Positions 28,941 to 35,966 of a stretch of 64,000 nucleotides of DNA are shown piece after piece. Both the position numbers and the translations under genes were made by a program. Position 1 is the first letter of the stretch, and every line of letters starts with the position of its first letter. The notes under the pieces are model-generated. The model did no database searches and was not told the origin of the DNA. It saw nothing but the letters and a program-made list of their open reading frames with translations. This DNA is from Verrucomicrobiota bacterium (lineage in GTDB: Bacteria > Verrucomicrobiota > Verrucomicrobiia > JADLBR01): the NCBI GenBank assembly GCA_029560585.1, contig JAKQKQ010000026.1:1-64000 (forward strand), written 5' to 3'.

Positions 28941-29336
28941 ATGCTGAACATCACCATCGAGAATGAGCCGAACGGGCGGGTTCGTGCCTGCCTGATCGGC
29001 CGCCTGGATACGGAGACCTATGGTCAATGCGAGGAGCGCTTGCGACCAGTTCTGTCGGGGGACGCGCGCGAGCTGGTGTTTGACTTGGCCCAGCTTGACT
29101 ATCTGAGCAGCATGGGGTTGCGGGTGTTGATGCAAACGACGAAGGCCCTTGCCCAGCGCGGCGGCAGGTGCGTCCTGACCCGGCTCCAGCCTCCGATTCG
29201 GGCGGTCATCGACATCGCAAACGCGCTGCCCCCAGAGACGATTTTTGCCAGCGTCGAAGAGGCCGATCGCTATCTGGACGTCATGCAGCGGCGGGCGAAG
29301 GAGGAGGCCGCGAAAAAAGCGAGGCGCTCCACGTAA
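28941..29336 (+). CDS. STAS-domain anti-sigma factor antagonist
   Basis: A 131-residue protein of SpoIIAA/RsbV type. It contains IGRLDTETYGQCEERL and the phosphorylation-site loop DYLSSMGLRVLM with candidate serines 56 and 57. Proteins of this kind bind a HATPase anti-sigma kinase and are switched off by serine phosphorylation. The gene for such a kinase lies tail-to-tail 27 bases away, so the two form a plausible partner-switching pair. The C-terminus is a Lys/Arg/Ala tail. The 277 bases upstream hold no gene that I can support. Confidence 0.88.
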   Translation: MLNITIENEPNGRVRACLIGRLDTETYGQCEERLRPVLSGDARELVFDLAQLDYLSSMGLRVLMQTTKALAQRGGRCVLTRLQPPIRAVIDIANALPPETIFASVEEADRYLDVMQRRAKEEAAKKARRST

Positions 29337-29363: not shown

Positions 29364-29810
29364 TCAATCGCGGGGCACCAGGATGGACAGGCGGTTGATG
29401 CCGCTGATCCGTTCGTACTGGATGTCGGACGCGAACTGCCTCACCAGCGTGAGGCCGAGCCCACCGATTTTTCGTTCTTCGAGCGGCGCGTCCAGATCGG
29501 GTGCGGGCGCGTTCAGGGGGTTGAATTCCCGACCGTCGTCCTCGATCACGATCTTGACCCGCTTTGGCTGCACGGAGACGCACAGCTTGATCTCGTGGTC
29601 GCCCCGATCGTCATAAGCGTACTTGAGGACGTTGGTTCCGATCTCCTCGATGATGAGGTTGCACGCGTAGGCGGCCTGCCCGCCGAGCCCCTGAGCTTTG
29701 AGGAAGTCCATGGCGTCCGCGGTGACGCGGCAGAGGGCGGGCAGGTTGTTCTGGAAAACCCGCTCCCAGATTGGCGGGGCATCGTCTCTGGAGGATTCGC
29801 CCGGCTTCAT
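29364..29810 (-). CDS. RsbW/SpoIIAB-type HATPase (anti-sigma / serine kinase-like)
   Basis: A 148-residue GHKL-type ATPase. The N-box is IIEEIGTNVLKYAYDD (about 53-68), the G1 box IEDDGREFNP and the G2 box KIGGLGLTLVRQF. The ATG at 29810 is preceded by AGGGA; a longer open frame upstream is non-coding by composition. It converges on the STAS gene. The canonical role is to bind a sigma factor or other output and to phosphorylate a STAS antagonist. No sigma factor or PP2C phosphatase gene is in the neighbourhood, so the output is unknown; the adjacent STAS-fusion/ABC operon is a candidate. Confidence 0.88.
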   Translation of the reverse strand: MKPGESSRDDAPPIWERVFQNNLPALCRVTADAMDFLKAQGLGGQAAYACNLIIEEIGTNVLKYAYDDRGDHEIKLCVSVQPKRVKIVIEDDGREFNPLNAPAPDLDAPLEERKIGGLGLTLVRQFASDIQYERISGINRLSILVPRD

Positions 29811-30004
29811 AGGGTCCCTGGGGTCTACGTCGGTGAGCCTCCGGCGCGGTTGGAGAAGCCGCTTGCTCTTCCGGGCCGCGTGATTGAAAATCGGCTTTGC
29901 AACGCCCCGACTGTATGAGACATGCCGGGTACCCTCAATGGAAAAGCCTGCCGGGCGGTTGAGGTGCTCGAGTTGAAGTACCATAGAGCGCCAACACACA
30001 CGAG

Positions 30005-32950
30005 ATGATGGCCAACCTCCAGCGGCTGCTGATGTCCCTCGCGTTGCTCGGTGCGGCGGCAATGGTCTTGCTGCTCTCGGACCTCCATTCCCGAAAGGGT
30101 GCCCGCCGCCCACAGGCCGATCGGATGATCCCCGTCGCATTGGTCAAACACGCCTCGAACTCCTTGCTGGACGAGGTGGAGCAGGGTGTGATCGACGCCA
30201 TGGCCGAGCGTGGCTACCGCGATGGCGCGAAGATCTCTCTCCAGCGTTTCTCGGCCGACGGTGACGTGCCGACCAGCACCGTCATCGCGAAGCGCGTCAC
30301 CGACGGCAGCTTCCGACTGGTCGTGAGCATGAGCACGCTCTCCCTTCAGGCGGTGGCCAACGCGAATTCTGCCGGGCGCACCCCCCACGTCTTTGGCGCT
30401 GTCACAGATCCCTCGGCCTCGGGCGTCGGCATCCGGGCCATGGGCAGCACGAACAAGCCACCCTGGATGGCGGGGATCGGCACGTTTCAGCCGGTGGAGT
30501 CCATCTTCCGGATGGCCAGGGAATCCTGGCCTGGGCTCAAGGTTGTGGGCGTCGTCTGGAATCCGGCCGAGCGCAATTCGGAGATGTGCGTCCTGAAAGG
30601 AAGGCAGGTCTGCGCCGAATTCGGCATTCAGCTCGTCGAGGCCACCGTGGACCAGACCAAGGACGTCCGCGATGCCGCCGGCGCGCTGGTCGCCCGGGGC
30701 GCGCAGGGCTTCTGGACGGGTTTCGACCTCACCGTCTACGCCGCGATGTCCTCGCTCTGCGAGGTCGCCGCCCGCGCCGGCATCCCTGTTTTTTCGAATA
30801 ATACCGGTCACCTCAAGGAGGGCACGCTTTTCGAGCTCGGCGCGAACTATGGGGAGGTCGGCCGCCAGATCGGCAACATCGCCGCCGACGTCCTCGGCGG
30901 TGCCGATCCCGCGAAGATGGCCGTCGAAAATTTCATGCCGGAACGCGTCATGCTGAACCGGCAGGTGCTCGGGGCGCTCCGCGATCCGTGGAAGTTCACT
31001 GACGAGGCCGTCGCCCGCGCGGTGATGATCATCGGCGCCGATGGCTCCGTCGAAAAGGATGCCCAGGATGCGCGTGCCGGCCCTGCCTCGGCTGCGGCGC
31101 CGGCGCGCGATCACCCGCACAAGATCGCCATGGCGTATTTCGGGCCGGACGAGGGCACCGACTCGACCATCGCGGGCATGATGGACGGCCTGCGCGAGCG
31201 CGGTCTTGAGGAGGGGCGGGATTTCTCGGTTGTGAAGTTCCACGCCAACGGTGAGATCGGCGCCATCGCCCCCATCATGCACGCGATCGATTCCGGGGAT
31301 GCCGACGTCGTGGTGACCTTTTCGACTCCGGTCCTCACGGCGGCGTGCTCGGCGGTGAGGCGGAAGCCCGTGGTGTTCACCTACTGCACCGACCCGGTCG
31401 CCGCGGACGCGGGCAAGACCTTCGAGGATCACCTCCCGTTCGTGACCGGGATAGGGTCATTTCCCCCGATAGAGGATGCCGTCAAGATGATCACCCTGAC
31501 ATTTCCCAAGGCGCGGCGCATCGGGACGCTCTACAACACTGCGGAGGCCAACTCGGTGCGCGAGGTCGGCAGGCTGCGCGACCTCTGCGGTTCGCTCGGC
31601 CTTGAACTGGTGGAGGCGGCGGCCGGGAATACGGCCGAGGTTGTGCCGGCGGCCCAATCGCTTGTGGCGCGGGGTGTGGACGTCGCGTTTCTGCCCGGCG
31701 ACAACACGGCCTATCAGGCCTTCGAGGGAATTGCCAGTACGCTCGCGGCAGCGCGAGTGCCCCTGGTCATCGATGCCCCGGAATTCACCGATCGCGGCGC
31801 CCTGGCCGCCGTTGGGGTCGGATATTACAACACGGGTTTCGCCACGGCGGAACCGCTCGCGCGCGTGATGGCGGGCGAATCGCCCGCCAAAATACCTTTT
31901 CGGAATGTTGCCCAAAAGCAGGTTAAGCTGAATCTCAAGGTGGCGTCACATCTCGGCGTCAGGTTTCCGCCGGAAGTCATGGCCATGCGGACCGAGGGGG
32001 CGAAATCCTCGGCCACTGGGGCGAAACCGGTCCCCCGGCTGTGGCGCATCCACCAGTTGTACTATCTCGAATCGCCCCTCGTTGAGGACAGCACGCGGGG
32101 GTTCCGGGAGGGGCTGGTAGCCGCGGGCCTCCGGGAGGGCGCCGACTTCGCGCTCAAGACATTGAGCGCCCAGGGCGACATGACCGCCCTGGGGTCGTTG
32201 TTTGACTCGGCGCGCATCGCCGGCGTGGATCTCTTCGTGGTTTTTTCCACGCCGACGCTCCAGACGGCGGTCAAAAAGGTCAGGGACGTGCCGGTGTTAT
32301 TCACGGTGGTGGCTGACCCATTCTTGGCCGGCGCTGGCAGGACGAATGATGACCACCTGCCGAACATCACGGGCGTCTGCACGCAGGGCCCTTATGCCGA
32401 GATGGCGAAACTCCTCGTGAACCATTTCCCGCAGATCAAGCGGGTGGGAACACTGTTTTGCCCATCCGAGGCGAATTCGGTGGCCAACAGGGATCTCTTC
32501 GTTCGCGAGGCGGCGCGGCGGGGGATCAGGGTCGAAGCCGTGGCCGTGAATGCCGCGGCAGAATTGGCCGACGCCGCCCTTGCGCTGTGCGGGCGTGGAC
32601 CCGATGCGGTCGTTCAGGTAATCGATAATCTCACCGCCGCCGGATTTCCGGCCATCGCCCGTGCGGCGCGACAGGCGCGAATACCGATCTTCACTTTCCA
32701 GGATGCCACGATCGGGCAGGGCGCCAGCCTCGTGTTATCGCGGGACTACCGCGATGCGGGGGTGGACACCGCGGCGATGGCGGTGCGCATCATGCGCGGG
32801 GAGAGTCCGGCCACGATACCTTTTGCGCCGCCGCGCACCGTGCGGTTACTGATCCACACCGATAATGCCGCGGCGGTCGGCCTGCGCATCCCCGCGGCGC
32901 TTCTGGAGAAGGCGCAGAGGGTTTTGCCGGGGCCATCGAAGGGTTCGTGA
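30005..32950 (+). CDS. TrpX-like ABC transporter substrate-binding protein with three tandem binding modules
   Basis: A 981-residue protein with one N-terminal hydrophobic segment (about residues 8-25) that acts as anchor or signal. Three successive copies of the ABC_sub_bind (PF04392, TrpX-type) fold follow, at about 42-345, 371-660 and 678-975. Each has the same sequence of landmarks: a 'G.R.GL/Y.EG' start helix, 'V.FSTP.L..A' (VVTFSTPVLTAA; VVFSTPTLQTA), 'VTGIGSFPPIED' or its equivalent, and 'R.GTL.....EANSV'. TrpX relatives in other bacteria bind aromatic amino acids, usually as single-module proteins. The gene leads a tight operon with a STAS-fusion protein, a permease and an ATPase. What the three modules bind, and whether they work in transport or signalling, is open. 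Confidence 0.88.
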   Translation: MMANLQRLLMSLALLGAAAMVLLLSDLHSRKGARRPQADRMIPVALVKHASNSLLDEVEQGVIDAMAERGYRDGAKISLQRFSADGDVPTSTVIAKRVTDGSFRLVVSMSTLSLQAVANANSAGRTPHVFGAVTDPSASGVGIRAMGSTNKPPWMAGIGTFQPVESIFRMARESWPGLKVVGVVWNPAERNSEMCVLKGRQVCAEFGIQLVEATVDQTKDVRDAAGALVARGAQGFWTGFDLTVYAAMSSLCEVAARAGIPVFSNNTGHLKEGTLFELGANYGEVGRQIGNIAADVLGGADPAKMAVENFMPERVMLNRQVLGALRDPWKFTDEAVARAVMIIGADGSVEKDAQDARAGPASAAAPARDHPHKIAMAYFGPDEGTDSTIAGMMDGLRERGLEEGRDFSVVKFHANGEIGAIAPIMHAIDSGDADVVVTFSTPVLTAACSAVRRKPVVFTYCTDPVAADAGKTFEDHLPFVTGIGSFPPIEDAVKMITLTFPKARRIGTLYNTAEANSVREVGRLRDLCGSLGLELVEAAAGNTAEVVPAAQSLVARGVDVAFLPGDNTAYQAFEGIASTLAAARVPLVIDAPEFTDRGALAAVGVGYYNTGFATAEPLARVMAGESPAKIPFRNVAQKQVKLNLKVASHLGVRFPPEVMAMRTEGAKSSATGAKPVPRLWRIHQLYYLESPLVEDSTRGFREGLVAAGLREGADFALKTLSAQGDMTALGSLFDSARIAGVDLFVVFSTPTLQTAVKKVRDVPVLFTVVADPFLAGAGRTNDDHLPNITGVCTQGPYAEMAKLLVNHFPQIKRVGTLFCPSEANSVANRDLFVREAARRGIRVEAVAVNAAAELADAALALCGRGPDAVVQVIDNLTAAGFPAIARAARQARIPIFTFQDATIGQGASLVLSRDYRDAGVDTAAMAVRIMRGESPATIPFAPPRTVRLLIHTDNAAAVGLRIPAALLEKAQRVLPGPSKGS

Positions 32951-32954
32951 AGAC

Positions 32955-34202
32955 ATGGAGATAGAGCGACAGCCTGGTCCGGAGATGATGGTGCTCAGGC
33001 TCCATGGCCGGATGGACGCCGCGTGGAGCGGCCACGTCAGCAAAGCCATCGCCGAGTGCATTCAGGCCGGTCATCACGCCCTGGGGATCGATATGGCGGG
33101 CGTCGATTACATCAGCTCCGCCGGAATCCGTGTGCTGGTGCAGCACGCGCGCCAGCTCAAGGGCATCGATGGCCGTTTCTCCCTGTTGAACACGGGTGGC
33201 GAAGTCAGGCGCGTCTTGACGCTGGCGGGGCTTGACGCGCTCTTGGGTGTCGGCGGTGGGTTGGCGGTCGGCGGTGCTCGTTTGGGAAGGCCCCCCGGCG
33301 GCGCTGAGGCGACCGCGGTGTCCTTGGCGGGCGCGCGTGGGGAGATTCACCTGCTTGACGCAGGTTCGACGATGCGGGTGCGAGAACTGGGCGAGGCCGA
33401 GCGCTGGCTCAGGGGCGCCGGTGATCCGCAGGCATGTTCCCTTTGCGAATTTGGGCCGGACATGATCGGTTTGGGGCTCGGGGCGCTTGGTGCCGGCGAA
33501 CCGCGACTGGGGGAATTCCTCGCCGTGCCGGGTGCGGCCGTGTGCCAGTCAGCCGATGGTTCGAATCGGCCGGACTATGTACTTCGGCAGGGCTCGCTGG
33601 TGCCGAGCGTGAACGTGGCGTACGGCATCATTGGACAGGGCAGTTTTGGGCGACTCCTGCGGTTCGAGAAATGCCCCGACAGCAACGGCGTGTCCATGAG
33701 CGAGGTGGCTGGTGCGTGCCTGGCCGCGGTGGGCGGCCACGTCGCGGCCGTGGTGATGGTGGCCGAGACCGCTGGGCTGGTGGGGGCCGCGGTCCAGAGG
33801 TTGCCAGACGACGGGACGGCGATGGCTGCCGCCGATGGCATTTTCGCCTTCCCCCGCGTCCGCGAGTGGCTGAGCTTCACCTCGGAAACGGCTTTCGCGA
33901 AATGCGTGAGCCTGGCCGTCGGTTTCGTGGCCTCGGCGCGGGGGGCCGAACGGATGCGATTCCTGAAACCGATGTCGAGGGCGGTTGATCTGCAGGGGCA
34001 TTTTCATGCGGCGGCGTTCCCGTACCGCCCGATTCGGCGGGGCAAGCTGGACTTGGACGAGGCACTGTCGCCGCTGTTTGACAATGAGAACGTCCTCGGC
34101 CTGCTGCATTTGGTGAACGACTGGCGCATCCCCAGCGGCGTGGGCGAAAGCTCTTTCCTGCGGGGTGCCTGCTGGTGTGCGCCCGTGGAGGATCGGCCAT
34201 GA
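32955..34202 (+). CDS. STAS-domain protein with a C-terminal domain of unknown function, embedded in an ABC operon
   Basis: A 415-residue cytosolic protein. Residues ~1-100 form a STAS domain (LRLHGRMDAAWSGHVSKAI, loop DYISSAGIRVLVQHARQL with Ser54/Ser55). A Gly-rich linker follows. The remaining ~300 residues do not match a family I know: GEIHLLDAGSTMRVREL, CSLCEFGPDMIGLGLGALGAGEPRLGEFL, NVAYGIIGQGSFGRLLRFEK, and a C-terminal LFDNENVLGLLHLVNDWRIP. It starts 4 bases after the binding-protein stop, and its own stop overlaps the permease ATG (ATGA). That position suggests it regulates, or is part of, the transporter, as the STAS protein MlaB does in the unrelated Mla system. It could also be a target of the nearby HATPase. 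Confidence 0.75.
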   Translation: MEIERQPGPEMMVLRLHGRMDAAWSGHVSKAIAECIQAGHHALGIDMAGVDYISSAGIRVLVQHARQLKGIDGRFSLLNTGGEVRRVLTLAGLDALLGVGGGLAVGGARLGRPPGGAEATAVSLAGARGEIHLLDAGSTMRVRELGEAERWLRGAGDPQACSLCEFGPDMIGLGLGALGAGEPRLGEFLAVPGAAVCQSADGSNRPDYVLRQGSLVPSVNVAYGIIGQGSFGRLLRFEKCPDSNGVSMSEVAGACLAAVGGHVAAVVMVAETAGLVGAAVQRLPDDGTAMAAADGIFAFPRVREWLSFTSETAFAKCVSLAVGFVASARGAERMRFLKPMSRAVDLQGHFHAAAFPYRPIRRGKLDLDEALSPLFDNENVLGLLHLVNDWRIPSGVGESSFLRGACWCAPVEDRP

Positions 34203-35140
34203 CACTGATGCTCGGTGCGCTCACGATCGGCCTCATCCTCTCGCTCTTGGCGATGGGGATTTTCATCAGCTTCCGCGTCTTCGAGATAGCCGATATCACG
34301 GTGGATGGCTCCATCACCCTGGGCGCGGCCTTGTGCGCCGTCCTGCTGGTGCGCGGCGTGAATCCGGCGCTGGCCATGGCCGCAAGTTTTCTCGCCGGCA
34401 CTGTCGCCGGCACGATCACCGGAGTCCTCCAGGCCCGATTCAAGATCAATCCGCTGCTCTCTGGCATCCTCGTCATGACGGCCCTCTATTCGGTGAACCT
34501 CCACATCATGGGGCGCAGCAACATTCCCCTCCTCACCGCAGAGAACGTGACCACCTGGGCCGACCGGTGGTCGCAGGCGTTGCTTGGTGTCGCGGACGTG
34601 AACGTGTTTGGCTGGATGGTCGCGGGGCGGGACCTCGGCATCCTTGCGCTGGTGCTTGGCATTGTGACGATGGTGGGCGTCGCGCTGTACGGGTTTCTGC
34701 GCACCGAGGTGGGCACGGCCATGCGGGCGGCGGGCGACAACCCGCAGATGATCAGGGCGCTGGGCGTCGATGTGGAATCCTATCGCATCCTCGGCCTGGC
34801 CCTGTCGAACGGGCTGGTTGCCTGGTCGGGGGCGCTGCTCGCGCAGTATCAGGGGTTCGCCGACGCGCAGATGGGCATCGGGATGGTCGTGTGGGGGCTG
34901 GCCAGCGTGATCATCGGCGAATCACTCACGGGTTCCCGGAGCCTTGGCCTCGCGATCTATGGGGCCATCGCGGGATCGGTCCTTTTCCGCCTTCTGGTGG
35001 CCATGGCTCTCCGCTGGGGGCTTAATCCCAACGACCTGAAGATCGTCACGGCCCTCTTCGTGTTTGGCGCGCTGGTGCTGCCCACGTGGGTGGGCACGTG
35101 GCGACGAAATCGCACGATCGCGGAGACTGCGAAACCTTAG
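34199..35140 (+). CDS. ABC transporter permease, TrpY/BPD_transp_2-like
   Basis: A 313-residue inner-membrane protein with eight to ten hydrophobic segments. Motifs are FEIADITVDGSITLGAAL, FKINPLLSGILVMTALY, RAAGDNPQMIRALGVD and GLASVIIGESL, which fit the PF02653 permeases that pair with TrpX-type binding proteins. GGAGGA lies 7 bases before the ATG, which overlaps the stop of the STAS-fusion gene, so the two are coupled. The ATPase gene follows after 13 bases. Confidence 0.9.
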   Translation: MTLMLGALTIGLILSLLAMGIFISFRVFEIADITVDGSITLGAALCAVLLVRGVNPALAMAASFLAGTVAGTITGVLQARFKINPLLSGILVMTALYSVNLHIMGRSNIPLLTAENVTTWADRWSQALLGVADVNVFGWMVAGRDLGILALVLGIVTMVGVALYGFLRTEVGTAMRAAGDNPQMIRALGVDVESYRILGLALSNGLVAWSGALLAQYQGFADAQMGIGMVVWGLASVIIGESLTGSRSLGLAIYGAIAGSVLFRLLVAMALRWGLNPNDLKIVTALFVFGALVLPTWVGTWRRNRTIAETAKP

Positions 35141-35153
35141 AACCAGGCGCCCC

Positions 35154-35966
35154 ATGCTCACCATCCGGGACATTCACAAGACGTTCAATGCGGGGACCGT
35201 CAATGAGGTCCGTGCCCTCCAGGGCGTCAGCCTCCATGTGCCCGAGGGCGGCTTCGTCGTCGTCCTCGGCGGAAACGGTTCGGGCAAGTCCACGCTCCAA
35301 AATGCCGTCGCGGGCAGCTTTTTCGTAGACGGGGGCTCGATCCAGATAGCGGGGGAGGACGTCACCCGCTGGCCGGAGCACCGGAGGGCGCGCCTCATCG
35401 GGCGCGTTTTTCAGAACCCATTCAGCGGCACGGCACCGACCATGTCGATCGCCGAGAACTTCGCCCTCGCGACACGCCGGGGGCGCCGCCGCAGAATCCG
35501 TTGGGCGATTTCGCGATCGGTGCGCGATGAGTTGCGCGAGCGAGTGCGGGGTCTGAGAATGGGTTTGGAAGACCGCCTGGACAGCGCTATCGGTAGCCTA
35601 TCGGGCGGCCAGCGTCAGGCGCTGACCCTCCTGATGGCAACATGGCTGAAACCGGCACTGCTGCTGCTGGACGAACACACGGCCGCGCTGGACCCCAAGA
35701 GCGCCGAGCAGGTTATCCGATTGACCGGCGAGATCGTCGGCGGCCTCGGCCTGACGACGGTCATGGTGACCCACTCGATGCAACAGGCCGTCAACCTCGG
35801 CGACCGCGTGGTGATGATGCACAAGGGTCGGATCGCCTACAGCTTCTCGGGGGCCGAGAAACAGCGGCTGCGGGTGGACGACCTGCTCGGCCGATTTGAG
35901 GAACTGCGGCGGAGGGAGATGCTGGACGAGAGCACCGCCGCACTGTTGCGGGAAAGCTACGTTTGA
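35154..35966 (+). CDS. ABC transporter ATP-binding protein, TrpZ-like
   Basis: A 270-residue ATPase with Walker A GGNGSGKST (39-47), signature LSGGQRQ, Walker B ALLLLDEH and the switch histidine in VMVTHSM. It belongs with the permease and triple-module binding protein upstream and completes a TrpXYZ-like set. Its start at 35154 lies 13 bases after the permease stop, inside a longer open frame whose extra N-terminus is the permease gene read in another frame. Confidence 0.92.
   Translation: MLTIRDIHKTFNAGTVNEVRALQGVSLHVPEGGFVVVLGGNGSGKSTLQNAVAGSFFVDGGSIQIAGEDVTRWPEHRRARLIGRVFQNPFSGTAPTMSIAENFALATRRGRRRRIRWAISRSVRDELRERVRGLRMGLEDRLDSAIGSLSGGQRQALTLLMATWLKPALLLLDEHTAALDPKSAEQVIRLTGEIVGGLGLTTVMVTHSMQQAVNLGDRVVMMHKGRIAYSFSGAEKQRLRVDDLLGRFEELRRREMLDESTAALLRESYV

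Follow-up and report, generated by a model that had tools for sequence, protein, structure and literature searches.

The locus described here raises the question of what three substrate-binding modules on one membrane-anchored chain contribute to the transporter that they serve. It lies in a stretch of 64,000 nucleotides from a Verrucomicrobiota bacterium (contig JAKQKQ010000026.1, positions 1 to 64,000), and this whole stretch is referred to below as the window. A preliminary description of the sequence had proposed that such an array could raise the local capture of a ligand, bind different ligands or act as a sensor. Based on the present data, we consider it reasonably probable that the substrate-binding protein (SBP) serves as receptor subunit in an ABC importer of the TrpXYZ type that handles several ligands and is coupled to partner switching by STAS-domain proteins. 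The analysis also led us to conclude that the more unusual part of the operon is not the three-module SBP but the STAS fusion gene that adjoins it.

Three bilobal modules on one anchored chain

The SBP gene (30005..32950, plus strand) is an open reading frame for 981 amino acids, and the suggestion that it encodes three tandem binding modules was borne out by a profile search, by comparison of the modules with each other and by structure prediction. The profile PF04392 (ABC_sub_bind, TrpX-type) gave three non-overlapping and near-complete matches. These correspond to module 1 (class A, residues 39-345, 30119..31039), module 2 (class B, residues 368-668, 31106..32008) and module 3 (class C, residues 680-975, 32042..32929), all on the plus strand. 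The matches cover profile positions 5-274, 1-288 and 8-292 of 293, with E-values of 4e-37, 3e-51 and 7e-43, respectively, and the 129-176 bits scored per stretch against a gathering cut-off of 25.9 place each module in the family. Pairwise identity between the modules is 22-31%, and their local alignment scores range from 198 to 382 compared to means of 36-38 (SD of about 6) for shuffled sequences. Since repeats at the DNA level within the gene are only of chance size, the modules are not recent duplicates. The profile search found no second PF04392 gene in the source genome. Of the short blocks that had been reported to recur throughout the protein, FSTP (at 439 and 747) and EANSV (at 514 and 822) are indeed exact in modules 2 and 3, but in module 1 they have diverged to MSTL and ERNSE.

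An AlphaFold2 model built on an alignment of 18 sequences contains an N-terminal helix followed by three complete bilobal modules, and not fewer (mean pLDDT 86.5). The modules are separated by low-confidence linkers at residues 355-368 and 665-672, and since the pTM is only 0.40, the relative placement of the modules is undefined in this model. Foldseek ranked the three family members of known structure first (3lkv, 3lft and 6hni; one alignment each, with target TM of 0.91-0.95), which identifies the modules as class I bilobal folds.

The presumed membrane anchoring of the chain also held up. The predicted anchor helix (30008..30100, plus strand) runs unbroken across residues 2-32 and carries a conserved SDxxSR exit motif. 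A lipobox is absent, since the first cysteine of the protein is found at residue 195 or later. Among 18 relatives L14, L23, D26 and R30 are invariant, and the last three of these residues lie at or just past the hydrophobic stretch. Conservation at this position argues for an anchor that is not cleaved and that contacts something; the contact partner may be the permease.

An importer operon with a STAS fusion gene

The SBP gene is the first of four genes, followed by the STAS fusion gene, a permease gene and an ATPase gene. The STAS fusion gene (32955..34202, plus strand) has its ATG 4 bases past the SBP stop codon, and this start was placed by a conserved MEI in the alignment of relatives. 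The BPD_transp_2 permease gene (TrpY-like; 34199..35140, plus strand), whose product matches the full profile, overlaps the preceding stop codon by 4 bases with its ATG, and the gene for the TrpZ-like ABC ATPase (35154..35966, plus strand) begins 13 bases further on. The operon thus combines SBP, permease and ATPase in the manner of a TrpXYZ-type importer, with three modules on the SBP as opposed to a single permease/ATPase gene pair. Just upstream of the SBP gene are a gene for a stand-alone STAS protein of the anti-sigma antagonist type (28941..29336, plus strand), identified by a profile match and probably a component of a partner switch, and a divergently oriented gene for an RsbW-like HATPase_c_2 kinase (29364..29900, minus strand; start codon uncertain). 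Both gene types recur at related loci. No SpoIIE gene was found on the contig of the window.

The product of the STAS fusion gene combines a STAS domain, recognized by its profile, with a C-terminal domain of about 300 residues (33312-34202, plus strand) that belongs to a conserved family. For this C-terminal domain there was no significant Pfam match in the 20 members tested, and a profile search against Pfam and PDB returned no homologue, so that the fold assignment derives from structure comparison alone. In the AlphaFold2 model of the fusion protein (pLDDT 85), Foldseek matched the STAS part to SpoIIAA, RsbV and MlaB, and the C-terminal domain to acetolactate decarboxylases and PTD012 (E-values from 7e-6 to 4e-4, target TM 0.44-0.61, aligned identity of about 10%). 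In PTD012, zinc is held by three conserved histidines (PMC12435205). Among 75 aligned STAS fusions H349, H351 and H385 are near-invariant (numbering from the window protein with its translation start at 32955). As the third of these histidines lies 34 residues downstream and is known from sequence only, a metal site in this domain is a proposal. With its enzyme-like fold, this conserved family outside Pfam is of interest in its own right.

The STAS domain has a putative phosphosite. Its SSAG motif is invariant, the SS pair being present in 74 of the 75 proteins with one gap, and in our alignment it coincides with Ser58 of SpoIIAA and Thr52 of MlaB.

Related loci and the possible role of a sensor

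To describe related loci, we used the STAS-fusion alignment as a probe against a contig collection covering 84,980 species, which yielded 82 confirmed relatives, of which 80 loci were kept. A protein scan of the same collection with the full-length SBP found nothing. The loci belong mostly to Verrucomicrobiota and Planctomycetota, and further ones were found in Acidobacteriota, Armatimonadota, Myxococcota, Bacteroidota, Elusimicrobiota, Ignavibacteriota and other phyla, several of them in metagenome-assembled genomes whose labels may err. Nearly all of the 80 named loci combine the STAS fusion with a permease and/or an ATPase. The permease is encoded at 77 loci, the ATPase at 75 and the SBP at 71, the gaps being mostly due to short contigs or proximity to contig ends.

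Within 7 kb, an RsbW-like HATPase gene was found at 34 of the 80 loci, a SpoIIE gene at 31 and a stand-alone STAS gene at 26; HATPase and SpoIIE genes were both present at 26 loci. The background for SpoIIE is about 0.01 per 15 kb (162 matches in approximately 217 Mb from 57 genomes of the class), but since the loci share ancestry and were fetched via the STAS fusion, the counts are not independent and the excess of SpoIIE is to be read as enrichment only. An analysis of gene clusters in the flanks revealed a mixed group of two-component and SpoIIE genes, and no single additional conserved partner gene.

These associations bear on the idea that the array is mainly a sensor for its ligands, with the permease relaying the signal to the STAS fusion and the switch genes and with transport being secondary. 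The position of the STAS fusion gene within the operon at related loci, the presence of at least one of the three types of switch gene within 7 kb at 41 of the 80 loci and the retention of the SBP at the membrane by its anchor would all suit a transceptor. Yet permease and ATPase are conserved across the loci, the permease matches its profile over the full length, about half of the loci have no switch genes nearby, and the SBP itself contains no signalling domain. We therefore regard a predominantly sensory function as unlikely, and prefer an importer whose activity is coupled to the STAS protein.

Ancient module classes that are gained and lost

Relatives with two, three and four modules were recovered in the search for multi-module homologues that the preliminary description had called for. 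Among 384 genomes surveyed from the class of the source organism, 43 have PF04392 matches, many of the strong ones consisting of two or three modules in one reading frame. The distribution is patchy, as a genome of the same genus (G002) has no SBP gene. A tree of 53 modules resolved three classes, namely A at the start of the chain, B, and C at its end, each with a support of 100/99-100, and the two-module proteins in this set are either AB or AC. In a tree of 148 modules, taken mostly from named genomes, class A forms one side of a branch with a support of 100, while classes B and C each need two changes.

The architectures across the 80 named loci are ABC (19), AC (15), AB (13), A (13), C (4), BC (1) and ABBC (1), and there are also two lone B genes and a few fragments at contig ends. 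The ABBC protein (locus L067) has 1326 amino acids and is encoded in an operon of the same layout. Some single-A proteins (L100 and L091) branch next to AB or ABC proteins, which indicates module loss. At a Planctomycetota locus (L116), A and B are encoded by separate genes that follow the ATPase gene; in the tree of 148 modules they sit next to modules of ABC proteins, and this arrangement is possibly a split or a pre-fusion state. With one to four modules from three old classes at the related loci, the array is to be seen as an ancient and evolvable trait and not as a local duplication.

Multi-module SBP genes were also observed elsewhere. One genome (G135) contains an A-C-C gene (L044) and an A-B gene (L046), and the 17-18 kb of surrounding sequence that we retrieved showed no gene for a STAS fusion, a permease or an ATPase. 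These two proteins are possible orphan receptors.

Ligand pockets differ between the module classes

To compare the ligand pockets, the contacts of solved binders (PMC6816091, PMC9382623) were mapped onto the modules via alignments to 6hni, 3lkv and 3lft. It should be noted that the identity to these proteins is 20-32% and that we converted the TrpX positions to CD0873 numbering ourselves (D152 = D158, N233 = N239), so that single-residue equivalences carry some risk. Over 145 modules of the system, T114 is kept without exception (145 of 145) and E187, N189, S190 and D238 are nearly invariant. D158 is replaced in 142 of the 145 modules. N239 is kept in all 84 modules of classes B and C and in none of the 61 class A modules, the equivalent residue in module 1 of the window being leucine. 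The site of Glu263 of CD0873 is mostly I, M, L or T in class A, D in class B (32 of 40) and N, A or V in class C; modules 1, 2 and 3 of the window have N/Y, A/Y and Q/Y, respectively, at the Glu263/Tyr279 sites. The pocket alignment thus uncovered positions that differ by class and from the solved binders of Trp, Tyr and Phe, and we infer that classes A, B and C prefer different ligands, which are unlikely to be free aromatic amino acids in the canonical binding mode.

Of the three ideas put forward earlier, the binding of different ligands fits these class-specific residues best, and an increased local capture of one common ligand fits less well. In the latter case all three modules would bind the same ligand and the array would raise its local concentration and the rate of handover. 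The modules do share a common fold and the five residues conserved in essentially all of them (T114, E187, N189, S190 and D238), and in OpuA the paired domains share a single substrate, glycine betaine (PMC11065425). Against this stands the ancient origin of the classes, which moreover differ in their residues at both specificity sites and at the contact N233/N239; a recent duplication for avidity would have left the pockets alike. Binding of a common ligand by all modules therefore seems rather improbable to us.

As a further alternative, module A could be an adaptor that attaches the chain to the permease and binds nothing itself, with ligand binding left to B and C. This would explain why A comes first and closest to the anchor in most multi-module proteins and is often kept alone, and the complete loss of N239 from this class points in the same direction. 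Module A nonetheless retains the five common pocket residues and, in most cases, Y279, and as the transporter genes persist at loci where A is the only module, it probably binds something. We thus find a purely structural module A doubtful, and return to a chain on which each module receives a ligand.

The preliminary designation of the protein as TrpX-like is correct with regard to fold and family but does not extend to tryptophan specificity. The whole SBP scores 425 bits against the NCBIfam equivalog for TrpX (NF041285), whose cut-off is 390, and Foldseek matched it to the tryptophan-bound structure 3lft. Both results would be expected of an ordinary tryptophan importer with a duplicated binding protein. 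Taken alone, however, modules 1, 2 and 3 score only 138, 150 and 142 bits, so that the cut-off is passed merely by addition and does not justify a TrpX label. In all three window modules Gln284, which favours tryptophan in SP1069, corresponds to Tyr and D152 is replaced, while N233 is missing from module 1. In addition, no Rfam family, T-boxes included, matched anywhere in the window. The tryptophan assignment was accordingly rejected as a summing artefact, and a plain tryptophan importer is the least likely of the alternatives and very improbable. The same addition of module scores may lead automatic annotation to name such multi-module proteins tryptophan-binding by mistake.

A proposed model for the multi-module importer

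In the model that we prefer, one anchored chain carries three class I modules which diverged long ago and have different pockets, and each module probably captures a small ligand of its own, related to those of the others. Every module would deliver its ligand to the single permease/ATPase pair, as has been described for the tandem domains of GlnPQ. Module A, being the first on the chain and nearest to the membrane, could have an altered or a docking role. The STAS fusion would be either a cytoplasmic regulator of the ATPase or a reporter of the transporter state, and may act via a Ser/Thr partner switch that involves RsbW-like kinases and SpoIIE phosphatases. A broader and distinctly more tentative version is that of a widespread importer or transceptor in which one to four anchored receptors of different specificity feed one translocator, phosphorylation of the STAS domain on Ser/Thr sets its activity and the enzyme-fold domain acts on the ligand or senses it.

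Comparison with known systems

The elements of this system have precedents: tandem binding domains are known from GlnPQ, paired domains from OpuA and a STAS subunit from MlaFEDB. Their present combination, in which an anchored chain of its own carries up to four PF04392 modules and an operon protein joins STAS to a decarboxylase-like fold, was not found described in the open-licence literature searched, and the transporter operon thus appears to be both widespread and undescribed.

With regard to module fold and to the types of permease and ATPase, the system resembles the TrpXYZ/CD0873-type importers of aromatic amino acids, and a canonical single-module operon with the same gene types, but without the STAS fusion, is present in genome G092. 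The TrpXYZ and CD0873 binders have a single module, and CD0873 is a lipoprotein, whereas here there are up to four modules on an apparently uncleaved anchor, the ligand contacts are altered and a STAS fusion gene lies within the operon. GlnPQ and OpuA likewise have more than one binding domain per transporter (PMC8025302, PMC11331510, PMC11065425), and the tandem domains of GlnPQ differ in ligand specificity and affinity. Their domains are joined to the transmembrane subunit and they belong to other transporter families, in contrast to the three or four PF04392 modules found here on a separate anchored protein. The architectures A, AB, AC, ABC and ABBC form a natural series on one conserved translocator, which lends itself to the study of module number and specificity.

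The C-terminal domain of the STAS fusion is structurally comparable to acetolactate decarboxylase (1xv2) and PTD012 (C11orf54; 1xcr), with Foldseek E-values of about 1e-5 and three near-invariant histidines, but it differs from them in sequence to the extent noted above, and its metal binding and activity are putative.

As for regulation, STAS antagonists, RsbW-like HATPases and SpoIIE phosphatases are shared with the SpoIIAA/SpoIIAB and RsbV/RsbW systems; unlike in those systems, the association here is with an ABC importer operon, and no sigma factor target was identified. A parallel is MlaB of MlaFEDB, which is also a STAS protein encoded with an ABC transporter (PMC7367683). MlaB is a single STAS domain in a lipid transporter, whereas the present protein adds a decarboxylase-like domain of about 300 amino acids, belongs to a small-molecule importer and is often encoded beside kinase and phosphatase genes. 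Thr52 of MlaB lies within the interface with MlaF, at the position of the phosphosite of other STAS proteins, and it has been named as an open question whether ABC transporters are regulated through the phosphorylation of MlaB and other STAS proteins (PMC7367683). At the loci described here, genes for a STAS protein and an RsbW-like kinase, often joined by one for a SpoIIE phosphatase, lie next to one and the same importer, which makes this question directly testable.
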